Virus record (IMG/VR): IMGVR_UViG_3300020463_003134
Location: 1 to 23,728 of that record
Reading direction: 5' to 3' (one strand)
DNA length: 23,728 bases
Origin: a virus
Positions 8,008 through 22,286 of the stretch are shown here, one piece after another. The translations under genes and the position numbers were made by a program. Numbering within the stretch: the stretch's first letter is position 1; each line of letters starts with the position of its first letter. The notes beneath the pieces are model-generated. The model did no database searches, was not told the DNA's origin, and worked only from the letters and a program-made list of their open reading frames with translations.

Positions 8008-8295
8008 ATGTATTTGAATGAATATAAAAATAAAAGATTATTTTCTCGTACGAGTAAAAAAGGTATAACACACAATTACTTTAGATATGTCACTATAGTA
8101 AAGTTAAAATGTGATAGTTGTGATATAGAATTTGAGCGTGAAAGGGGAACAATGGACTATAAACGTTTAAATAATAACTTCTTTCATGTATGTAACAAGT
8201 GTGATAGTAAAAGATTTGCTCAGAAAAAAGGTGTTGAACGAAAACAGATTTGGAATATGAGTGCTAGTAGTGATATACCAATTGGAAAACTTTAA
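8008..8295 (+). CDS. Small zinc-ribbon protein, the only plus-strand gene
   Basis: A 95-aa basic protein with two CxxC pairs (C35/C38 and C62/C65) separated by 23 residues, the spacing of a treble-clef or zinc-ribbon fold. The segment around the second pair reads FFHVCNKCDSKRFAQKKG. Such folds occur in phage HNH-like nucleases and in small nucleic-acid-binding regulators, but I see no clear HNH catalytic His-Asn set, so I do not assign a function. It is transcribed opposite to everything else and its stop codon overlaps the stop of the convergent ErpA-like gene at a shared TTTAAA. No ribosome-binding site is seen before the ATG; a later start is unlikely because internal Met codons lie after the first Cys pair. 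Confidence 0.75.
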   Translation: MYLNEYKNKRLFSRTSKKGITHNYFRYVTIVKLKCDSCDIEFERERGTMDYKRLNNNFFHVCNKCDSKRFAQKKGVERKQIWNMSASSDIPIGKL

Positions 8296-8585
8296 ACAGC
8301 AAAACTTTCGCCGCATCCGCAAGAAGCAGTTGCGTTAGGATTTTTTACTGCGAGATAGCTACCACCTAATTCTGTAACATAGTCTATAGTGCAACCAAAT
8401 ACAAACATTTCTGCCATTGGGTCTAAATATAGGTTAGCTACAATGGCTTCTTTATCAGTGGTTCCCCATTCATATTGAAACCCTGAACAACCGCCACCTT
8501 TTACTGATAAAGATACATTGGGATTACCTACCTTTGCAAGATAGTCCCTAGCACTTTCTGTAAGCTGAATTATCCCTTTTGCCAT
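8292..8585 (-). CDS. A-type iron-sulfur cluster carrier (ErpA/IscA/SufA-like)
   Basis: This 97-aa protein would carry and insert Fe-S clusters into apo-proteins in the cytoplasm. The family's three cysteines are present: C33 in GGGCSGFQY and C89/C91 in the C-terminal CGCGESF motif. The length matches the family (about 105-115 aa) closely. I chose ATG 8585, which aligns with the family start; a second ATG at 8594 adds three residues but has its GGAG site only one base away. The start overlaps the preceding small membrane protein gene by 16 bases. It is the last gene of the operon beginning at 12440. It fits the other redox enzymes in the window: Fe-S proteins of the host respiratory chain are possible clients, though that is inference. 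Confidence 0.9.
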   Translation of the reverse strand: MAKGIIQLTESARDYLAKVGNPNVSLSVKGGGCSGFQYEWGTTDKEAIVANLYLDPMAEMFVFGCTIDYVTELGGSYLAVKNPNATASCGCGESFAV

Positions 8586-8734
8586 ATAGTCCATACTCCG
8601 TACGCAATAGCAATTCCTGCCGCAATTTTAGCAAGAGGTGCTAAAAATAAAACCATAAGTCCTAATATAATCAAAGCCGCACCGTCCCATGTTGTACGTT
8701 CTTTCATTCTAGAGTCAAGCCACTTTTTCAACAT
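8570..8734 (-). CDS. Small membrane protein (54 aa)
   Basis: The start at 8734 is supported by an AAAGGAGA ribosome-binding site about 6 bases upstream. The longer reading from 8776 has no such site and runs inside uvsE. After a charged N-terminus (about residues 1-15) there are two hydrophobic segments, roughly 17-31 and 33-49, probably a membrane hairpin. It overlaps the end of uvsE by 20 bases and the start of the ErpA-like gene by 16, so the three are probably translationally coupled. Small hairpin membrane proteins of this look occur in marine T4-like phages; function unknown. Confidence 0.75.
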   Translation of the reverse strand: MLKKWLDSRMKERTTWDGAALIILGLMVLFLAPLAKIAAGIAIAYGVWTIWQKG

Positions 8735-9758
8735 TAAATTCTCCTTTATAATATTTATGCAGGTTAATACTTGCAAGGTTCTTAGCCTTACTTTCTACCA
8801 TAATATCAGCTGTGTCTCCAAAAGACAAAGCCCAATCGTTAACAGCCCAATTCCACATATAGTCGCTATGAGCACGTAGTTTTTGTTTTTTAAATCCTTG
8901 TTCAAGTAAATTCTCCATGTTTGGCAAAGTAAAAGGATTATGATCTATCAGTATATCTTCACGTGATATACTATAATGAATCACAGGTCGCACTCCTCTC
9001 CAACTATCCATTAAGCGTAAATATCTATCGTCGGATGGAAGAATGTATTCAGCTTCACGGACCCAGTGGTGGTGTATGTCAAGTACGAGGGCACATGTGT
9101 CGACCAACTCGAGACTTGCGTCAATGCCCCATTTGTTTTCGTCGTTTTCGATCGTAATGGTATTTCTCGCTTCCGGAGATAGTCTTGTGTCAACTGCGTG
9201 TTTGATACCGGCTGGACCTTTCCTGCCGGATATATGGACGTTACATTTGAAGTCTTGGAACGATTGGCCATAGCCCATCCATCTGATGCAATCAACATGA
9301 TATTCAAACTCCTCTATAGATCTTTCGACGATGTCATCATTGTCACTGGCCAGTACTGTAAATTGGCCGGGATGCATCGATAAACGCACACCGAGTGCTC
9401 TTGCTCTGTCGCCGACTTTTGCAAATTCTTTTTCGCAGTAGGCACGTACATCAGTCTTGTGCCAATAATAACCCCAAGTAGGCTCGGTATAAACAGGAAG
9501 CACATCACTACCCAATCGGACCATTCTAAGTTCTGGAGGTAGGCTTCCAACATATTCAATTAACCTTTTGTATGACGCTATGTTATGAACCATTAAGTCC
9601 CATAAGCGTTCTTCAGCAACATCACGTGTTTGATTATTTAACCAACGTACTGTTGTGCATCTTGTATTTAGCGGTCGCTGGACCTCTTCTAATAATTTTT
9701 TCTTTTGTGTTTGATCTTCATGCATAAATTTGCATGCAAATCCTATACGTCTAGTCAT
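8715..9758 (-). CDS. uvsE: UV damage endonuclease (UvsE/UVDE family)
   Basis: This 347-aa TIM-barrel metalloenzyme nicks DNA 5' of pyrimidine dimers and other lesions, starting alternative excision repair. The metal and active-site segments of the family are visible in order: SMHPGQF (H129), IENDE (E204), DIHHH (H229-H231), a His at 261, AHSDYMW (H297) and MVESKAKN (E322). Length fits the family. The start overlaps the dihydroorotate-dehydrogenase-like gene by 8 bases. A repair enzyme of this kind suits a phage of sunlit surface water. It sits in the middle of the 12440-8292 operon and is presumably expressed with the redox genes. Confidence 0.93.
   Translation of the reverse strand: MTRRIGFACKFMHEDQTQKKKLLEEVQRPLNTRCTTVRWLNNQTRDVAEERLWDLMVHNIASYKRLIEYVGSLPPELRMVRLGSDVLPVYTEPTWGYYWHKTDVRAYCEKEFAKVGDRARALGVRLSMHPGQFTVLASDNDDIVERSIEEFEYHVDCIRWMGYGQSFQDFKCNVHISGRKGPAGIKHAVDTRLSPEARNTITIENDENKWGIDASLELVDTCALVLDIHHHWVREAEYILPSDDRYLRLMDSWRGVRPVIHYSISREDILIDHNPFTLPNMENLLEQGFKKQKLRAHSDYMWNWAVNDWALSFGDTADIMVESKAKNLASINLHKYYKGEFNVEKVA
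8752..8759 (-). promoter_or_regulatory. Possible late-type promoter box inside the end of uvsE
   Basis: The minus strand reads CATAAATA here, a 7-of-8 match to the T4 late consensus, 18 bases before the ATG at 8734 and just before its strong ribosome-binding site. It could give separate expression of the small membrane protein and the ErpA-like gene. Because it lies in coding sequence of an AT-rich genome, chance occurrence is quite possible. Confidence 0.25.
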
Positions 9759-10443
9759 TTATAATACCTTTTATCCGCCAAGGTGTAAAGTTTACAGATC
9801 CTAAGCTGATGTGATCTGCACCAGCATCAATATATGCTTTTGCATCTTGCTTGCACGTAACACCGCCTCCTGCAATTACTTGCACATGCGGGTGTGTATC
9901 TTTTATGTATGTAATTAGTTTCATTGTATATGGTACCAATATTTTACCACTGAGTCCACCTTTGTCTGATTGTAACGTATTACTTGCATGTATTGTATTG
10001 TAACCTAATTCTACTAATTTGTCAACCAGTTTTTCGTCTGATGTAGGAGGAATTTTAACTATACACCATTTGCCTTTAATATAATTAGGAAACTTAGCAA
10101 ATCCATCAAATGTAGTTGTATCTTCGTGCGAGTCTAAGTTAGGACAACTTATGTTCAATTCTACGTTACGTTGAGGGCTAATTGCTAATCGTATCTTTTC
10201 CCAGTCTAAAGGTTCTAATGCCGCAATACTCAAAACTTGATTATACCCAGTCCGCATCATACCAGCGTGTATTCCTGCATTGCGAAGGCCAATCTTATTA
10301 CGCCAACCAGTCTTTGTGTATCGTAAAGTTTTTGCAATCTGTTTTAAAAGTCCTGGTCTGGGTTTGAAAGTCCATGTTCCGGTTACACTAATAGCGTTCT
10401 TTCTTTTGATATAATTTCCAAATGGTGCTGATATAAAATACAT
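9751..10443 (-). CDS. Dihydroorotate dehydrogenase-like FMN protein (PyrD family), short form
   Basis: A 230-aa TIM-barrel flavoprotein candidate. DHODH hallmarks appear in order: VTGTWTFKPRPG (20-31) and NKIGLRNAGIHAG (49-61) matching the N-terminal FMN region, NISCPN (97-102), a Lys at 130 in VKIPP, SNT (154-156), GGLSG (162-166) and the phosphate-binding IAGGGV (190-195). DHODH oxidises dihydroorotate to orotate in pyrimidine synthesis. The protein is some 70-100 residues shorter than usual, with little sequence before the first barrel strand and a shortened active-site loop after NISCPN, so its substrate could differ. Its ATG overlaps the stop of the ferredoxin-NADP reductase (TAATG), tying the two together. 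Related FMN enzymes such as dihydropyrimidine dehydrogenase are an alternative. Confidence 0.8.
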   Translation of the reverse strand: MYFISAPFGNYIKRKNAISVTGTWTFKPRPGLLKQIAKTLRYTKTGWRNKIGLRNAGIHAGMMRTGYNQVLSIAALEPLDWEKIRLAISPQRNVELNISCPNLDSHEDTTTFDGFAKFPNYIKGKWCIVKIPPTSDEKLVDKLVELGYNTIHASNTLQSDKGGLSGKILVPYTMKLITYIKDTHPHVQVIAGGGVTCKQDAKAYIDAGADHISLGSVNFTPWRIKGIIND

Positions 10444-11141
10444 TATCCTACAAACGCCTTTTCTTGAACTAAAGTACCTGCTTGTCTTTTATTGCCTTCA
10501 GAGAATCCCCAACCATCGAACATAGTTGCTACTTCTTTATTAAAGTCTAAATTACCACAAATCATAATCTTATGTTCACTTGGTTCTAAATTAGGTACAA
10601 TCTGACCTGCTCTAATAAAATGAGTTATACGTTTGTTAAAGCCAGTCCAATCCGGGTCTTGTGTTACAGTAGCAGTATACTTTATATCTTGATCCTGTAA
10701 GAAACTATCCCATGCTGTAAGTTCTAATGCTTTACGCACACTCCAGTATACATGTATTTGATCAAAGCAATCATACGTTGTAGGGTCTCTTAGTAGCGAT
10801 ATAAAGGGGGCTATGCCAGTACCAGTAGCTAATAGCCATAAGTTACCGCCTAATTCTAAATTACTAAGTGTTAGAGTTCCTGTAGGCTTTTCTCCTACAA
10901 TTAATTCATCTCCTACTTTAATATGCTGTAGTTTGCTAGTCAACGGACCGTTAGGTACTTTGATACTGTAAAATTCTAGGAATTCATCGTATGGTCCGCT
11001 TGTAAAACTATATGCTCTTTTAGGCGTTCCTTCTAATCCTATCATTACAAATTCACCTGCTGTAAATCTAAATGTGTTAGGCCTTTCTGTTTTTATCCTA
11101 AACAAGCTATCTGTATAATGTTCTACTTCTATAACTTTCAT
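10443..11141 (-). CDS. Ferredoxin/flavodoxin-NADP+ reductase
   Basis: A 232-aa FAD enzyme that moves electrons between NADPH and ferredoxin or flavodoxin. The FAD-binding RAYSFTS (42-48) and the NADP-binding GTGIAPFISLLRDP (107-120) are intact, with VYWSVR and MICGN later, and the chain ends QEKAFVG, very like the C-terminus of bacterial Fpr enzymes. It lacks the Cys-rich 2Fe-2S domain of the related PyrK. I chose ATG 11141, which overlaps the glycosyltransferase stop as ATGA and begins with the conserved MKVIEVEHYTDSLF; the longer reading from 11183 runs inside that gene. It is translationally coupled to the downstream PyrD-like gene, so it may supply or accept its electrons (inference). Confidence 0.9.
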   Translation of the reverse strand: MKVIEVEHYTDSLFRIKTERPNTFRFTAGEFVMIGLEGTPKRAYSFTSGPYDEFLEFYSIKVPNGPLTSKLQHIKVGDELIVGEKPTGTLTLSNLELGGNLWLLATGTGIAPFISLLRDPTTYDCFDQIHVYWSVRKALELTAWDSFLQDQDIKYTATVTQDPDWTGFNKRITHFIRAGQIVPNLEPSEHKIMICGNLDFNKEVATMFDGWGFSEGNKRQAGTLVQEKAFVG

Positions 11142-11968
11142 ATTATTTCGTGCCAATTTTTTACCACCCAAGGATCTTGACATCTATGCGGATTTGGATC
11201 TCCATGGAATACGCAAATACAACATTCTGGTGGAGGTGTGACTGATTCTACTTGTTCTAATATTCTATTGCCTCTTGTGCCGCCAGGCTTAAAATTCTTT
11301 GTTCTTCTTATTTCCCACTTCCAACTTCTAATCCATTCGTCCGGAAAGTAGGTTGCAATATCTTTTCCTTGGTCCCAAATCCAATCTTGATCACCATGGA
11401 ATCTACGCATGTTAGACATGGCATTATTAATAAAATTAGTATAGATAAATTCATGTTCTCCGGCTTCCCACCTCATTACACTACTATTAAACTTTTCCCA
11501 TTGTGGTCGCATTGCTCTGGTAAAGTCTCTACAAATTAACCACTGCCCGGGTTTGTAACTAAAAATTCTATCAAAGTTATCTGCTATAACTACATCCAGA
11601 TCCAAATACAATATTGTACCTTGTAGTTCTAATTCATTACTAAACAACCAGGGCTTATACCACCACCCTGACATTGCACTTTTTGGTAACTTAATAACGT
11701 TTATTCCTGTAAGTAGATTTTGAGGATCTTCTGTTGCACAGTAAAATTTAAATTCTAAAGAACAATGTTTCTTACAAGCTGAAAATAGTTTGTTAACATA
11801 ACTGCTATCATATTTGGCGCCGTGTTTTAGACATAAAATATTAATTTGATGTGCATTAGGATCTAATTTAAGTTTACGTGCATGAGCCTTAGCAATTTTA
11901 CGTTGTTGTTTTTCTCTCTTTAGCTTTTTATATTCTTCTTTAGTGTATAGACTTTTATCAATTTTCAT
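11138..11968 (-). CDS. Glycosyltransferase with DxD motif
   Basis: A 276-aa protein. After a lysine-rich N-terminal stretch (1-35) comes a GT-A-like fold beginning INILCLKHG (42-50), with the metal/nucleotide-sugar motif YLDLDVV (DLD at 123-125) and later a conserved FHGDPNPH near the C-terminus, where His commonly completes the site. This suits a retaining sugar transferase similar to GT8 or to the family widely found in marine T4-like phages. Acceptor unknown: host surface glycan, virion protein or modified DNA base are all possible. The start at 11968 is favoured because it overlaps the QueD-like gene by only 11 bases; a longer reading from 12031 would lie in that gene. Confidence 0.82.
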   Translation of the reverse strand: MKIDKSLYTKEEYKKLKREKQQRKIAKAHARKLKLDPNAHQINILCLKHGAKYDSSYVNKLFSACKKHCSLEFKFYCATEDPQNLLTGINVIKLPKSAMSGWWYKPWLFSNELELQGTILYLDLDVVIADNFDRIFSYKPGQWLICRDFTRAMRPQWEKFNSSVMRWEAGEHEFIYTNFINNAMSNMRRFHGDQDWIWDQGKDIATYFPDEWIRSWKWEIRRTKNFKPGGTRGNRILEQVESVTPPPECCICVFHGDPNPHRCQDPWVVKNWHEII

Positions 11969-13331: not shown

Positions 13332-14402
13332 TCACCGGGAAATTAGTCCGAAGGGATTCCACTCACCTGGTGAGCCGCTTCGTACACATATCCAACCTAC
13401 ATAGCCACTTGGTTGTGGACTTGCGTTGTATATTATATCACCCTTAATATAATTTCCTGATGTTGGTACACTGTCTAACCATTGTACCGTATGCCCTTGT
13501 ACTTTTATAGGTCCTGCAACTGCAAGATCTACATTACCAAAATTCTTTACACCTATACCTAGTTTGCCGTTAATAATAACTTTATCTTCTAAAGTAATAC
13601 CACCTGTTTGTCCAACTTTTATTCTAATAGTATCATCTGTTATTATGTCTAGTCCGGTTGTACTCCAAGTACCTATTTTAAATTCACCATCTTCAGTTGG
13701 ATCAATTACAAATTCGTGATCCAAACTTTTAATTGCCAACTGTCCATTAGGTTCTGATGTACCTACTCCAAGCCTTTCTGTGTTAGCATCATAATGTACA
13801 TATTCATCTACACTAAGACTACCTTCTGTGTGTAAATTTTGTAGTGTGCCTACACTGGTAAGCCTACTAGCTGTAACACTATCACCTAATTTTGTAAATT
13901 GAATGACAGGTATACCTTCTATCATATAGGACTTATCTTTATTAAGATCTATATTTTCGCTTGAGAATAGTTTATCTGGATTAGGTTGAAAAGTGAATTG
14001 ACGTGTATGTCCTTCACCTGTCCAAATTAATCCTTTACCATGCCCTCCTTGAAATTCTAAAGGGCTTGTTCTTTCATTTCTAACATCAGCTGTTATTTCA
14101 TCTACATGAAGTTTTGTAGCTGTAATGCCTCCGGTAATAGTTAAGTCACCTTGTACTGTGATATTGTTATCTAAAACCTTAGTTTTTATTACATCTACAT
14201 TAATACCATTGTCAGAAATATTTAAAACAAAATCTTTAGCTTCATCCTTTATTCCTACACTTGAAAAATTAGTAATACGCCCGCCGTTAATTTTATTACC
14301 TGACAACTCTCTATCTAAAATATCAGGCTTTGCACTAGTAGGGCGAGCCTCTAATGATTCTATAGCAGTGGCTAATGCGTCTAAATTTTCTCTGATGGTC
14401 AT
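13332..14402 (-). CDS. Phage tail fibre / structural protein
   Basis: A 356-aa protein. A short N-terminal helix (1-22) leads into repeated short beta stretches rich in Gly, Thr, Asn and Ile (for example ITVQGDLTITGGITATKLHVDEITADV near 82-108 in overlapping short repeats). The C-terminal half resembles trimeric fibre shafts with phrases such as RLGVGTSEPNGQLAI, and the end (from about 325) reads GDIIYNASPQPSGYVGWICVRSGSPGEWNPFG, a tip motif common in phage fibres. I infer a trimeric tail fibre. A GATAAATA late box lies 25 bases before the ATG and GAAGGA serves as ribosome-binding site, which supports late expression. Confidence 0.8.
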   Translation of the reverse strand: MTIRENLDALATAIESLEARPTSAKPDILDRELSGNKINGGRITNFSSVGIKDEAKDFVLNISDNGINVDVIKTKVLDNNITVQGDLTITGGITATKLHVDEITADVRNERTSPLEFQGGHGKGLIWTGEGHTRQFTFQPNPDKLFSSENIDLNKDKSYMIEGIPVIQFTKLGDSVTASRLTSVGTLQNLHTEGSLSVDEYVHYDANTERLGVGTSEPNGQLAIKSLDHEFVIDPTEDGEFKIGTWSTTGLDIITDDTIRIKVGQTGGITLEDKVIINGKLGIGVKNFGNVDLAVAGPIKVQGHTVQWLDSVPTSGNYIKGDIIYNASPQPSGYVGWICVRSGSPGEWNPFGLISR

Positions 14403-14426: not shown

Positions 14427-14434
14427 TATTTATC
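14427..14434 (-). promoter_or_regulatory. T4-late-like promoter box for the tail fibre gene
   Basis: The minus strand reads GATAAATA, the same octamer as before the giant structural gene, here 25 bases before the ATG at 14402. It overlaps the TGA stop of the preceding 430-aa gene. The repetition before both internal structural genes is the main support for a real late promoter. Confidence 0.5.
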
Positions 14435-15725
14435 AAACAACCTTTAGCAATACCGTATCTGGATTACATCGTCCATTAAGTTTTGTATCTGTGGTTTTTA
14501 TATCTTCCATATACTTGCGTAGCTTTACTTTACCGGCATCCTTAAATTCTTTTAATTGTTCAGCTGGTTTACGTAATGTTTTTTGTATGCTTTCTGTTTC
14601 GTTGTAACCTATAATTGTTGTCCCTTTTACACTCAAACCACTTCCTTGTCTTTGCATGCCTTTTGGATCAATATTACTTGCAACATACTTACCTATCTTT
14701 CTTGTTTTCGTGTTAAACACCCAAAGCTCATTTGCACCAACGATCTGATCCGGCGATATACTTGCAAGTTTATATTTTTCGTCAGTGGTACAATATTTTA
14801 ATTTTGTTACTAGTTTATCTGCACTGTACACTTTAGGCTTACGTGGTTTCCGTGTTGCTTTTGCACTATCTATCACAAAATCAAGAGCAGAAATAAGTTC
14901 ACCAATAGCAATTTTATAATTTTTTATATCTGCTTTTTTAAAATGTGCATACCCTTCTTTTAGTTGTTCCCATTGATCAGCTTCAAATTCACTCATCTTT
15001 TTCAACTGACCTGCTGTTGGCATACGTTCAAGTTGGTCATAATCAACAAGTGCATCAACATAAAATGTTTTTAGCCTACGAGCATGTGCTTGTGTAACAT
15101 TCATATCTGAGAAATGCTTTTTGAAGTCAAAGCCTTTTGGATCAAACGTCTTTGGATCAATTAACCATCCTTCTAACCATTCTTCAATAGCTTCACTCTG
15201 TTTATATGCTTGATCTCTTATGCGTTCTTGAATACTAGGAATATGTAAATTTGCTTTTTCCTTTTCTATTTCTTTTTTGTCTTCTACTACTTTAGCACCT
15301 TCAGTTATTGCTTTTTCTATTCTCTCTTTAAGAAACTTAGTAGCAGGTTGTGTGGTTCCCATTGTGCCTGGTAAAGTTTGCCAGTACTCATCTTCTTTAG
15401 GATTGTAATCAGGCATTCCACACAACAACATTTTTGCAGTAATAGAAGCAGTAACACTCAATACATACCCCGGAGCGGCTTTAGCTTGTTTTAACTGTTC
15501 TTTTGTGTATCCATTTTTTTCCATCCATTGCCATGCGAAAGGATATAAATCAGCTGGTTTAAAATTTTGATAATAAAATTCTCTTGTAGCTGAAGCAAAT
15601 CTGTGATATTTTTGCCCATCCCATTCTTCCCAGCCTTCCCAACTTGGATCTGCTAACTTACCACCTCTTTTAATTCTAGGTGCCGCTCGTACTGTTTTCT
15701 TTTTTGTTCTTTTCGGCAATGGCAT
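14433..15725 (-). CDS. 430-aa conserved phage protein of unknown function
   Basis: I do not recognise a named family. The N-terminus (3-23) is strongly basic with KRTKKK and RIKRGGK. Residues about 24-60 are rich in Trp and Tyr (WEGWEEW, YQNF), residues about 140-180 form a charged helix likely to coil, and a second basic linker at about 289-297 (ATRKPRKPK) precedes a C-terminal domain with TKLKY, VGANELWVFN and SVKGTTIIGY. The basic regions suggest binding to nucleic acid or to the virion interior. I believe similar C-terminal domains occur in marine T4-like phages, where they are also uncharacterised. It has its own sigma70-like promoter and a GGAG site, and it precedes the late fibre gene. 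Confidence 0.7.
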   Translation of the reverse strand: MPLPKRTKKKTVRAAPRIKRGGKLADPSWEGWEEWDGQKYHRFASATREFYYQNFKPADLYPFAWQWMEKNGYTKEQLKQAKAAPGYVLSVTASITAKMLLCGMPDYNPKEDEYWQTLPGTMGTTQPATKFLKERIEKAITEGAKVVEDKKEIEKEKANLHIPSIQERIRDQAYKQSEAIEEWLEGWLIDPKTFDPKGFDFKKHFSDMNVTQAHARRLKTFYVDALVDYDQLERMPTAGQLKKMSEFEADQWEQLKEGYAHFKKADIKNYKIAIGELISALDFVIDSAKATRKPRKPKVYSADKLVTKLKYCTTDEKYKLASISPDQIVGANELWVFNTKTRKIGKYVASNIDPKGMQRQGSGLSVKGTTIIGYNETESIQKTLRKPAEQLKEFKDAGKVKLRKYMEDIKTTDTKLNGRCNPDTVLLKVV

Positions 15726-15791: not shown

Positions 15792-16769
15792 TTATCTAAA
15801 ATGATTACGTATTGTTTCTACAAAAATTCTGACGTTTGCAGGTGGTGTATCTTTTAGGATTCCATGACCTAATCCGCATACCCAACCAGTTGTATCTTTA
15901 ATAGTATCTAACCATTTTTTAATTTCGTATCTTAAAATTGTTTCAGAGTTCTGTAATAACAGTGTTTCATCAAAGTTACCTTGTACAAATCCTTTGTTAA
16001 CTTTTTGTAATGTTTTAGCTAGGTCAATAGTGCTATCAATACCTATTCCACTAAATTCTAGTTCTATAAGTTTATTCATACTATTATAAGGTAAATTTTT
16101 TGAATAATATACTGTATTTTCTGAAGAAGCTAAATCTTTTAATATTTTAATATATTCTTTATCAAACAAACTTTTTGGTATATTGTGCAATCCGCTATCG
16201 AATATCATTACACAATCTGCGCCTGCATGGGTTTGTTGTCTAATACTAGCTTGTAATAATGGTACTAGATTATCTTTTATAAATTTTATTTTAAAATCGT
16301 TTTTTACTTTGCTTTGTCCACATGCATAATTCATAAGAGTCCATGGACCTCCTATAAAACCTACTATATTTTTTTTGTAGGGTAATTTTTCTCTAGTGGT
16401 TTTAATTGCCCTAGCTTGAAATTCTAGATGTTCAATAGATTTTTGATTGTACAAATGATCTTTGTAGTTTTCTTCTGTGAGGTCGAATTCGAATTTAGGA
16501 CCCGGGTTAAATTTTAAAGGAATATTTAATGCTTCGATATGATACAAAATATCGCTGAATAGAATTGCTATGTCGAAGTCATATTCTTCAATAGGCAACA
16601 TTGCTACATCAGATGCTACTTGTGGCAATTTACACATTTGTTCAAAAGAAAATTTTTCTTTAAAAGATCTATATGATGCTTGATAACGGCCTGCTTGTCT
16701 CATCATCCATATTGGAGGACAAGGTTGGCCTACCCTATTACGAGCATTGTCAAATAATGTTTCGGTCAT
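15792..16769 (-). CDS. hemE: Uroporphyrinogen decarboxylase (haem biosynthesis)
   Basis: HemE converts uroporphyrinogen III to coproporphyrinogen III by four decarboxylations in the cytoplasm. At 325 aa it is slightly shorter than bacterial HemE (about 340-355). The catalytic and binding residues are all in place: PPIWMMRQAGRY with R24 and R28, ILFSDIL with D73, GGPWTLMNY with Y148, FDS with S192, and LGHGILKDTPPANV with H302. These match the human Arg37, Asp86, Tyr164, Ser219 and His339. The Arg-to-Asp spacing of 49 is also the human one. The middle (about 150-240) is Lys/Asn-rich and shortened. It follows the DNA ligase after 47 bases. A phage copy could lift tetrapyrrole flux during infection, for example to supply haem for the cytochrome b encoded upstream (inference). 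Confidence 0.95.
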   Translation of the reverse strand: MTETLFDNARNRVGQPCPPIWMMRQAGRYQASYRSFKEKFSFEQMCKLPQVASDVAMLPIEEYDFDIAILFSDILYHIEALNIPLKFNPGPKFEFDLTEENYKDHLYNQKSIEHLEFQARAIKTTREKLPYKKNIVGFIGGPWTLMNYACGQSKVKNDFKIKFIKDNLVPLLQASIRQQTHAGADCVMIFDSGLHNIPKSLFDKEYIKILKDLASSENTVYYSKNLPYNSMNKLIELEFSGIGIDSTIDLAKTLQKVNKGFVQGNFDETLLLQNSETILRYEIKKWLDTIKDTTGWVCGLGHGILKDTPPANVRIFVETIRNHFR

Positions 16770-16816: not shown

Positions 16817-18154
16817 TTATATTTTTTCACCAGGCTCAAATCCACGAAAAGTTTTAAAACGTGGAAAACGTAGACTATATGTGTCCGAATCTTGTGACTT
16901 TGTTCTTGCGTCTGCTCTAATTTCAATTAGAGAACCAATGAGGTTATCACGCTCAGTCCAGAACTGATCACGTTGACTGTCAGTGAAACCACTTCCACAG
17001 TTAAGGTGATAAGTGTATCCATCGTCTACTCCTTCTACTATTACGGCACCTAGTCTTCCTTCGTTGCGTCCTGTGCCTTCTTCGACAGCAACAACATTCA
17101 ATGTTACTTCTATAAACGGCTTTGCTTTAAGCCAACTGTGTGTTCTTTTACATTCATAAGGTGCATTAGGATCTTTGATCATAACACCTTCATAACCACC
17201 GTCTACAGCCGCTTTATTAAGCTCTACAAAGCGTTCTTGACCTTCTTGGGTATCTAAGTCCACATCTTCCCAATCAAGTGTTTGTACGTGCTTTAAGACG
17301 TCTTTGTTTTGATCTACCCAAGCCTTGACTGCTTGACTTCTAAATGATTGTGTTTTGTCCCAAATCCCTTTTTGGAATTCAGATAACGGACACATATCAA
17401 AAAGATGCAATACTGCATCTTCTGATTGCTTACCATCTTTTCTATGCACTTGCTTCATTAGGTCTTGAAAGTTTGCACTCATCACTTCCCCATCTAACAC
17501 TAGGTCATATGGTGGTTGTTTATCTTTCACTACTGCTTCTATTTCAGAAATAATATGTCCAAAGTTATGAAACTGTTTTCCATTACGACTAAACATTTCA
17601 ACTTTACAAAACTGCTTATGACTAGTATCACCTCTGATAATTGTTATTACCCTGACTCCATCTAATTTAACTTCAACCTGCTTTTTGCCAACCATTTTCT
17701 TTTCGTGGTTTGCAGAATCATGTGCAAGAGGGCAAGTAAATACAGGAATAGCATACTGTGGGAAGTTTTTTGCAATCTTGTTTACAGTCTTTTCAGACAC
17801 ACCACAACGTAGATCCTTTATTAATATTCTACGATAAAACATATTCCATTGTTCAATTGTTGCAGTGTCCTTACACAATATTATTGAATCACGTGCCGCA
17901 TGTCCAGTAAGACTTCTATTAATTAGTTTACGTGCTAATTCTTTAAATGTAGCCCAAGCAAGACCTTGTCCGTCCACTGTTGCTTCTGGAACTTGCTTGA
18001 CCCCAAACGTTACTAAGGGATCAAGCGCCATTTTAACACCTTCAAAGAATTCGTCGAGACCTTCTTGCATTGCCTGCTCTATAATTGCTTCTTTTGCTAG
18101 CCTTGAATTATTATCTTCTAATTGATTAATAATTTCTTGCGGTTGGGTTCTCAT
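16817..18154 (-). CDS. ATP-dependent DNA ligase, T4 gp30 type
   Basis: This 445-aa enzyme seals nicks in replication and repair. The nucleotidyltransferase motif I is VEVKLDGVR with the AMP-accepting Lys at 163 (T4 uses Lys159). Motif III-like LVLDGEV, motif IV YEGVMIK and motif V WLKAKPF follow, then an OB-fold C-terminal part with LGAVIVEG and LIEIRADART. The N-terminal domain has RRILIKDLRCGVSEKTVNKI, very like T4-type ligases. It is slightly shorter than T4 ligase (487 aa). The start overlaps the phosphoesterase stop as ATGA, so the two are translationally coupled and share the promoter at 18691-18718. Confidence 0.95.
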   Translation of the reverse strand: MRTQPQEIINQLEDNNSRLAKEAIIEQAMQEGLDEFFEGVKMALDPLVTFGVKQVPEATVDGQGLAWATFKELARKLINRSLTGHAARDSIILCKDTATIEQWNMFYRRILIKDLRCGVSEKTVNKIAKNFPQYAIPVFTCPLAHDSANHEKKMVGKKQVEVKLDGVRVITIIRGDTSHKQFCKVEMFSRNGKQFHNFGHIISEIEAVVKDKQPPYDLVLDGEVMSANFQDLMKQVHRKDGKQSEDAVLHLFDMCPLSEFQKGIWDKTQSFRSQAVKAWVDQNKDVLKHVQTLDWEDVDLDTQEGQERFVELNKAAVDGGYEGVMIKDPNAPYECKRTHSWLKAKPFIEVTLNVVAVEEGTGRNEGRLGAVIVEGVDDGYTYHLNCGSGFTDSQRDQFWTERDNLIGSLIEIRADARTKSQDSDTYSLRFPRFKTFRGFEPGEKI

Positions 18155-18725: not shown

Positions 18726-18801
18726 TGGAGTGGAAGACAGGACTCGAACCTGCATAATACGGATTTGCAATCCGGTGCGTAACCAATTCCGCCACTTCCA
18801 C
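18726..18801 (-). tRNA. tRNA-Cys (GCA)
   Basis: Folds as a 76-base tRNA including an encoded CCA end. Acceptor GTGGAAG pairs with CTTCCAC, the discriminator is U (typical for Cys), and the anticodon loop TTGCAAA gives anticodon GCA. Third and last in the tRNA cluster, 4 bases after tRNA-Arg. Confidence 0.9.
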
Positions 18802-18805
18802 ATTT

Positions 18806-18882
18806 TGGCCTGCCCGGAGAGATTCGAACTCCCGACCTTCTGATTCGTAGTCAGATACTCTATCCAGCTGAGCTACGGGCAG
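18806..18882 (-). tRNA. tRNA-Arg (ACG)
   Basis: Folds as a 77-base tRNA with encoded CCA. Acceptor CTGCCCG pairs with CGGGCAG, the discriminator is G, and the anticodon loop CTACGAA gives ACG. The D and anticodon arms closely follow bacterial tRNA-Arg(ACG). Reading CGC and CGA would need host TadA to change A34 to inosine. It lies 1 base after the Trp-like tRNA. Confidence 0.92.
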
Positions 18883-18883
18883 T

Positions 18884-18968
18884 TGGCACCGGTTGTAGGA
18901 TTCGAACCTACTGAGCTTACGCACTGGTTTTGGAGACCAGCATACCTCTCCAACTGTATCGAACCGGC
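18884..18968 (-). tRNA. tRNA with Trp anticodon (CCA) and an enlarged variable region
   Basis: Folds as an 85-base tRNA with encoded CCA. Acceptor GCCGGTT pairs with AACCGGT (G1-U72 wobble), the discriminator is G, the D stem is ATAC/GTAT, and the anticodon stem CTGGT/ACCAG has loop CTCCAAA, the same loop as bacterial tRNA-Trp. The T arm is GTAGG/CCTAC with TTCGAAT. Between anticodon and T stems lie 12 bases instead of the 4-5 of a normal tRNA-Trp, which makes it class II-like. The anticodon says Trp; G73 fits Trp or Ser. First in the cluster, just after a promoter. Confidence 0.8.
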
Positions 18969-20405: not shown

Positions 20406-20579
20406 TTATCTCCCAAAAAATTTCCTGGCTGCATTGATAGGATTTTTCAATCCTTCGTATGTTTGATCAATAAAGCCTATATGTTTATTTAATTTAGCAT
20501 CAAGTCGCTCTAAAGTCAACTGAATTTTGTCAACTTTTTTGTCCAATTCCTTTAAAGTATTTACTATATCTTTATTCAT
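20406..20579 (-). CDS. Small coiled-coil protein in the cytochrome b cassette
   Basis: A 57-aa protein starting [15 protein letters not shown] at 20579. A heptad-like pattern of Leu, Ile and Val runs from about 5 to 40 ([18 protein letters not shown]), followed by a short basic end (ARKFFGR). It overlaps the end of cytochrome b by 8 bases, which indicates translational coupling; the longer reading from 20633 would lie inside cytochrome b. Probably an oligomeric helix or a scaffold. No family recognised. Confidence 0.65.
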
Positions 20580-21825
20580 TTTTCTTCTCCATACTTGCAT
20601 GAATACTGGTCGGTAAAGTTTTAGGTGTTTCAACTAATCCTACAACCGGTGCTAGTATAAAAATAAAGCCAAACCAATATGCAGTACCTAATCTACCTAA
20701 TATAACATAAAGTCCTTCTGCAGGCATAGCACCAACCCACATAAGCATAAAAAAGTCTGCTACAAATACTAGTACTAACCATTTCCATACTGGTCTATAA
20801 CGACAACTCCGGACATAAGATCTATCCAACCAAGGTAGTAATCCAAGTGCCGCTATCGCACCACCCATTGCAATGACACCCATTAGTTTATCAGGAATAG
20901 CTCTGAGAATAGCATAGAACGGAAGGAAGTACCATTCCGGAACAATGTGTGCTGGAGTAACCAAAGGGTTTGCAGGTATATAATTATCAGGATGTCCTAA
21001 ATAGTTTGGCATAAACATACAAAACACTGCAAAAATAGTTATGAACACAGCCATAGCAGTTAGATCTTTAGCAGTCACAAACGGGTGAAAACTCACGGTA
21101 TCTCTTGTGTCTTTCGGCTCTACTCCAGTTGGATTATTTGATCCTGTGATATGTAATGCAATTACATGAAACAATACTACACCTACGATTAGAAATGCAA
21201 TTAACCAATGTAGCACAAATGCTCTGTTTAAAAATGCATCATCAACACTGTAACCTCCCCATAGCCATACAACTATAGTTTCGCCTACAAACGGAATAGC
21301 AGAAAATAAGTTAGTAATAACTGTAGCACCCCAGAAGCTCATTTGTCCCCAAGGTAAAACATAACCAAGAAAGGCTGTTGCCATCATTAAGAAAAATATT
21401 ATTAATCCTATAATCCACATAAGTTCCCTAGGATGTTTGTAACTTCCGTACCAAAGTCCTCTAAAAATATGTATGTAGACTGCAATAAAAAAGAAACTAG
21501 CCATATTCATATGTATGTAACGGATTAACCAACCACCGTTGACATCTCTCATAATATGTTCAACACTTTCAAATGCAAGGTTTACATCAGGTTTATAATG
21601 CATACCAAGAGCCAATCCTGTAATTATAAGAGTAATAAGACATATCATTAAAATGCCTCCAAAACTGTAAAAATAATTAAGGTTTCGTGGCACCTGGAAG
21701 TCAAGGTACTCATATTTTAACATTCTAAATATTGGAAGTCTATTGTCAATCCAACCTAATACACCTGTAAAAGGTGAACCACCAACTTTATTAGTTTTAA
21801 CTGGTTTGTAATTTTTTTCTGTCAT
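20572..21825 (-). CDS. petB: Cytochrome b of the respiratory bc1 complex, complete
   Basis: The central membrane subunit of complex III, which carries haems bL and bH and the quinol-oxidising (Qo) and quinone-reducing (Qi) sites. All 417 residues are present, about the normal bacterial length, with roughly eight membrane helices. The four haem-ligating His are intact with canonical 14-residue spacing in both pairs (H105/H119 and H206/H220). GGW (97-99), the cd-helix [19 protein letters not shown] region (154-172) and the Qo motif PEWY (296-299), followed by [13 protein letters not shown], are typical of alphaproteobacterial cytochrome b. I chose ATG 21825: the longer reading would begin inside tRNA-Leu. 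The leader after that tRNA is only 16 bases. Next genes are coupled to it. No Rieske or cytochrome c1 gene is in the window. Confidence 0.97.
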
Positions 21826-21841
21826 CTGTGTCTTTCTGTGT

Positions 21842-21925
21842 TGGTGCCCATGGAGGGACTCGAACCCCCACGCCATAAGCACAGGTACCTAAAACCTGCG
21901 TGTCTACCAATTCCACCACATGGGC
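21842..21925 (-). tRNA. tRNA-Leu (TAG)
   Basis: Folds as an 84-base class II tRNA with encoded CCA. Acceptor GCCCATG pairs with CATGGGC, the discriminator is A, the anticodon stem CAGGT/ACCTG has loop TTTAGGT giving anticodon TAG, and a normal long variable arm is present. Its first base is the last base of the TAG stop of the small gene upstream. Its 3' end lies 16 bases before the cytochrome b start. Confidence 0.92.

Positions 21926-22210: not shown

Positions 22211-22286
<76 letters not shown>

Follow-up and report, generated by a model that had tools for sequence, protein, structure and literature searches.

Why would a phage carry a gene for a middle step of haem synthesis, and does the gene at this locus encode a working enzyme? 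The window, i.e., the whole stretch of DNA analysed, is a metagenome contig of 23,728 bases (23.7 kb) from an IMG/VR virus record. ALA is converted to protoporphyrinogen IX via HemB, HemC, HemD, HemE and HemF: HemB turns ALA into PBG, HemC turns PBG into hydroxymethylbilane, and HemF turns coproporphyrinogen III into protoporphyrinogen IX. Uroporphyrinogen III is the branch point between protohaem and sirohaem/cobalamin. We consider the window gene to be, with a probability of roughly 0.75, a functional uroporphyrinogen III decarboxylase belonging to a phage-specific lineage, which would supplement the mid-pathway protoporphyrin supply of the host in infection. The argument draws on the following genes of the window:

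13332..14402, minus strand: phage structural/fibre-like protein (phrog_21471; phrog_6002, virion structural; phrog_2617)
14433..15725, minus strand: phage protein of unknown function, orf430 (phrog_11903, PHROG 6.4e-46), conserved downstream neighbour of hemE
15792..16769, minus strand: hemE, a URO-D family protein of 325 aa, viral-clade HemE (PF01208, UROD matches in PDB, AlphaFold2, Foldseek, dN/dS)
16817..18154, minus strand: ATP-dependent DNA ligase (PF01068, PF14743), upstream neighbour of hemE, conserved in the window's clade
20572..21882, minus strand: complete cytochrome b of the bc1 complex (PF00033, PF13631, PF00032)

The hemE gene is an uninterrupted open reading frame that exactly fills its coordinates. 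Its product matched the Pfam URO-D family PF01208 over the whole length (residues 7–322, 211.9 bits, E 1.7e-62, cut-off 23.9), and every match among PDB sequences was a uroporphyrinogen decarboxylase (UROD). The AlphaFold2 model, based on an alignment of 43 viral sequences, had a mean pLDDT of 93.7 and a pTM of 0.92; its top 24 Foldseek matches were all UROD, with TM-scores of 0.82–0.90 to solved structures. The dN/dS values (NG86) were about 0.05–0.10 for the hemE pairs of the window, L002 and L005, and up to 0.15 (0.09–0.15) for the other pairs tried. Such low values across pairs indicate that the protein is maintained by strong purifying selection. The gene is thus real, and its first-pass annotation as a phage-encoded HemE held. 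Against the NCBIfam equivalog TIGR01464 the protein scored 205.6 bits, under the cut-off of 302.95, so that automatic annotation would not name the gene hemE. For orientation, a further viral HemE (L252) reached 211.3 bits and a bacterial-type phage HemE (L231) 404.5. In PHROGs there was no match for the window HemE. The window protein is a diverged member of the URO-D family that probably works like HemE.

The first-pass annotation had also described all catalytic and binding residues as present. The six residues it named, R24, R28, D73, Y148, S192 and H302, align with human R37, R41, D86, Y164, S219 and H339, and were invariant in an alignment of 46 viral-clade proteins (one incomplete row is without the H column). 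The description does not extend to human R50, which we take to be a substrate-contacting arginine of UROD: its position is occupied by K37 in the window. A lysine was found here in 46/46 proteins of the main viral clade, and an arginine in 38/38 of the bacterial HemE compared; this arginine, conserved in those bacteria, is not known to define the URO-D family. Just before the LGHG motif, the window has C298/G299 where bacterial HemE has F/N. With these replacements and the equivalog score below the cut-off, an altered substrate preference is possible. A change of function of the whole viral clade within the URO-D superfamily, to another porphyrinogen or a methyltransferase-like activity, would fit the same score, R50K and the other clade-wide changes, as well as the great length of the branch (2.28 changes per site in a quick tree) between the viral and the bacterial HemE. 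We regard such a change as improbable, because the catalytic D/Y/S/H and two arginines are invariant, the structural match to UROD is far ahead of that to methyltransferases (Foldseek E 1e-23 versus 1e-14), and the gene occurs in runs with hemC, hemF and hemB.

As expected of a phage auxiliary metabolic gene, hemE is flanked by phage genes, recognized by PHROG matches and synteny. Remote homologues of the phrog_11903 protein occur in phages of Pseudomonas and Sinorhizobium. The order ligase-hemE-orf430 was kept in L002–L005, L007–L009, L011–L015 and others. In L002–L005 the ligase, hemE, orf430, the fibre gene and further genes followed the window order, with HemE being 84–88% identical; in other contigs with this order, HemE was 64–68% identical. 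The closest long relative, the L005 record (83.7 kb, hemE 84% identical, gene order as in the window), encodes two phage proteins, a protease and one of baseplate type. This gene order is conserved in separately named records, and therefore the locus is not a chimera. The window being a 23.7 kb metagenome contig, one could think of host DNA or an assembly artefact in a viral bin. We give this almost no credence, since many contigs keep an identical phage gene order around hemE, phage structural and PHROG genes are found in both the window and L005, and the bacterial HemE compared, all from Pseudomonadota, are at most about 36% identical.

Several other genes were recognized in the window. At 8292–8594 it encodes an ErpA/IscA-like iron-sulphur protein and at 8715–9758 a UV damage endonuclease (UvdE), both kept in most syntenic relatives. 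At 9751–11183 a dihydroorotate-dehydrogenase-like gene (230 aa) abuts a ferredoxin-NADP-reductase-like gene; by tblastn, L002–L005 showed the former gene only, and L007, L008, L011 and L012 the latter only. Five tRNA genes (Cys, Arg, Trp, Leu, Thr) are located at 18726–18968, 21842–21925 and 22211–22286.

Phylogenetically, the viral HemE formed one clade far from the bacterial HemE compared, which were from Pseudomonadota only: a more careful tree grouped 45/45 main-clade viral proteins behind a single branch supported at 100/100. With this single clade, and a best identity of about 36% to the bacterial HemE compared, we rejected the idea that hemE was recently captured from a SAR11-like bacterium as host. 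Two further types of HemE were found in phages. L231 (3347–4378) and L233 had a different, bacterial-type HemE, and a third type, present in some hemC-bearing records, was represented by L477 (39.5% identical to SAR11 HemE and 31.6% to the window). The R50 site was K in L477 and R in L231. The three types indicate that hemE was taken up by phages several times, independently. INPHARED yielded no isolate phage with these hemE, hemC or hemF genes: its matches, with 23–40% identity, came from contigs annotated as bacterial or from short pieces lacking annotation, and we judged that these phage-labelled records contain bacterial sequence.

What would the haem be for? It had been proposed that the phage boosts haem for its own cytochrome b, encoded beside hemE. 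The window does have a complete cytochrome b, on the same strand as the likewise complete hemE, and it retains the haem-ligand His pairs, each 14 apart (124/138 and 225/239), and the PEWY motif (at 315). The two genes are nevertheless 3.8 kb apart; the intervening DNA contains the DNA ligase gene, three tRNA genes, small ORFs and genes for a phosphoesterase and a putative sulfotransferase. URO-D was found in 0/45 viral records with cytochrome b, and Cytochrome_B in 0/100 viral records with haem genes (0/50 + 0/50), the records being mostly fragments; the window was the single record tested with both. Cytochrome b is missing from the 83.7 kb L005 record, whose hemE has the same position as in the window, and L066, the nearest cytochrome b relative, has no hemE within the 6.9 kb available. 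These counts are evidence against a general link of cytochrome b with hemE, although a rare co-occurrence is possible, the records often being fragments. On the co-occurrence counts, the test put forward with the proposal itself, we rejected the proposed link, and consider it decidedly improbable that HemE serves specifically to provide haem for the cytochrome b of the phage.

Phage-borne complex III cytochrome b was found in at least 45 viral contigs, with neighbours that were not bacterial-like in the flanks examined. The closest viral relatives of the window copy (L066–L072 and L105, 74–89% identical) constitute a separate group, whose identity to the bacterial cytochrome b compared does not exceed about 67%. 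Most of the other viral copies (in L073–L110) were 83–90% identical to SAR116 cytochrome b and stood alone in non-bacterial contexts. The window's group is older than, and distinct from, these SAR116-like copies. Among isolate phages no cytochrome b match was convincing: a Helicobacter phage record gave one, 38% identical and at its edge. The first part of the longest cytochrome b ORF in the window (20572–21882) is shared with the Leu tRNA gene, and thus the true start is probably further in. In many alphaproteobacterial genomes (L141, L142, L116 and other loci) hemF was located within ~1–3 kb of the cytochrome b gene, which connects haem synthesis with complex III on the host side.

The more telling neighbours of hemE were found in its relatives. 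At least 64 other viral contigs carried viral-clade HemE in a scan with the window protein, and a wider scan with the viral HemE alignment gave 135 stretches. In most relatives hemE was part of tight runs with hemC and hemF, with hemB added in one group; the neighbours that recurred were HemC, at 38 loci in the cluster, and HemF. The gene orders were hemE-hemF-hemC, hemF-hemC-hemE, hemC-hemE, hemE-hemC and hemF-hemC-hemE-hemB. Viral HemC matched PF01379 with about 190–227 bits and viral HemF matched PF01218, both exceeding the equivalog cut-offs (TIGR00212 and PRK05330, respectively) in the members tested; viral HemB matched PF00490 with 180 bits. Among the hemE records, 31/50 had hemC. Dedicated scans gave 244 stretches for hemC, 41 loci for hemF (nearly all also with hemC and hemE) and 13 loci for hemB. 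Once loci sharing identical genes had been merged into groups, the flanks examined contained hemE only (34 groups), hemC and hemE (20), hemC, hemE and hemF (16), all four genes (5), hemC and hemF (2) or hemC only (31). At L252:5989-9518 the order was hemF-hemC-hemE-hemB, with four-base overlaps of hemC with hemE and of hemE with hemB. HemB of this run type was shortened (282–284 aa). Viral HemC had 245–328 aa and a reduced C-terminal domain; in the eight sequences aligned, the cysteine for the cofactor and the D and R residues of the active site were conserved.

Runs of hemF-hemC-hemE-hemB with overlapping genes were also present in L239–L251 and L279–L291. A different arrangement was seen at L040:9175-11640 (also in L039, L044 and L065), where hemE, without hemC, is flanked by surface-sugar (KDO-synthesis-like) genes, one of them KdsA-like (DAHP_synth_1) and the other KdsB-like (CTP_transf_3). 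Bacterial contamination was considered for L028–L034 and for L039/L040/L065; for the former it was rejected, as a recombination-nuclease-like ORF beside hemE in L030 (AAA_23/SMC_N) points to a phage.

Neither the window nor the 83.7 kb L005 record had hemC, hemF or hemB adjoining hemE. The window's clade kept hemE alone, and thus the argument from gene runs applies to the window by homology. With this reading, the position of hemE next to hemC, hemF and hemB in relatives strengthens the earlier suggestion that an apparently intact HemE would push tetrapyrrole flux to protohaem. If expressed in infection, the phage HemE would supplement or stand in for the HemE of the host, channelling uroporphyrinogen III into coproporphyrinogen III. 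The supply of protoporphyrin and haem, mainly for host respiration, would be sustained while host gene expression falls, a benefit that would parallel the one proposed for phage alaS (PMC11480375). Because genes for hemD (PF02602) and ferrochelatase (PF00762) were found in 0/50 records each, the host would have to supply HemD and ferrochelatase, and presumably also ALA and protoporphyrinogen oxidase. Phages with hemB, hemC, hemE and hemF would supply all steps from ALA to protoporphyrinogen IX except HemD, and those with hemE alone would strengthen the commitment to protohaem over sirohaem/B12.

The same enzyme could bring a different benefit, as a variant of this explanation. HemE might act mainly as a valve, diverting uroporphyrinogen III from sirohaem/cobalamin or preventing a build-up of phototoxic uroporphyrin, more than raising haem output. 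Uroporphyrinogen III is the branch point of the pathway, and the clades with hemE alone (the window's and L039/L040/L044/L065) would do just that; hemF, where present, carries the flux on to protoporphyrinogen IX, and we hold this variant to be rather unlikely. We keep to a phage HemE that would supplement the protoporphyrin supply of the host. For the relatives, we somewhat favour the view that hemB-hemC-hemE-hemF is an old, phage-evolved segment with short HemB and HemC and a re-tuned HemE, leading from ALA to protoporphyrinogen IX with HemD from the host. Different kinds of phages would then keep different subsets, the window only HemE.

A phage role in haem supply has so far been proposed from scattered single genes. 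If our reading is true, a dedicated, phage-evolved haem set in many contigs would be one of the larger metabolic modules of ocean viruses. The interest is therefore in the phage haem gene family more than in the window gene alone. This family's HemE is missed by both the curated HemE cut-off and PHROGs. The viral haem enzymes are of small size and lend themselves to tests in E. coli hem mutants. Specific questions for biochemistry arise from the clade-wide R50K and from the lack of hemD in the records.

Compared with known HemE/UROD (PF01208; PDB 1URO, 1R3Y, 3CYV), the window protein is alike in fold, length class, catalytic residues and two substrate arginines. It differs in its ~25–36% identity, the lysine at human R50, a shortened loop after Y148, its score under the TIGR01464 cut-off and its membership in a separate phage-borne clade. 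In the open-access articles searched we found no report of phage hemE, hemB or a hemB-C-E-F run; hemC/hemF in one pelagimyophage, phage ferrochelatase and phage alaS are published. Ferrochelatase in a pelagiphage (PMC9599517) and viral ahbD (PMC9301287) are likewise virus-encoded haem steps, but late ones and different from those found here, without hemE; ferrochelatase was found in 0/50 of our contigs. Phage alaS, occurring with hemO/pcyA or pcyX, was shown to be active and proposed to maintain respiratory haem (PMC11480375). It likewise feeds tetrapyrrole synthesis, but represents the first committed step plus the bilin branch, in other phages, and the main text of that paper is without hemB, hemC, hemD and hemF. 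A further precedent is a putative deep ecotype of pelagimyophages, with coproporphyrinogen oxidase and porphobilinogen deaminase genes (Zaragoza-Solas et al. 2020, PMC7029224). Its text is limited to hemC and hemF, in this one ecotype, with no mention of hemE, hemB or a gene run; both cases concern marine phages, and the HemC and HemF found there are the very enzymes adjoining hemE in the relatives of the window.
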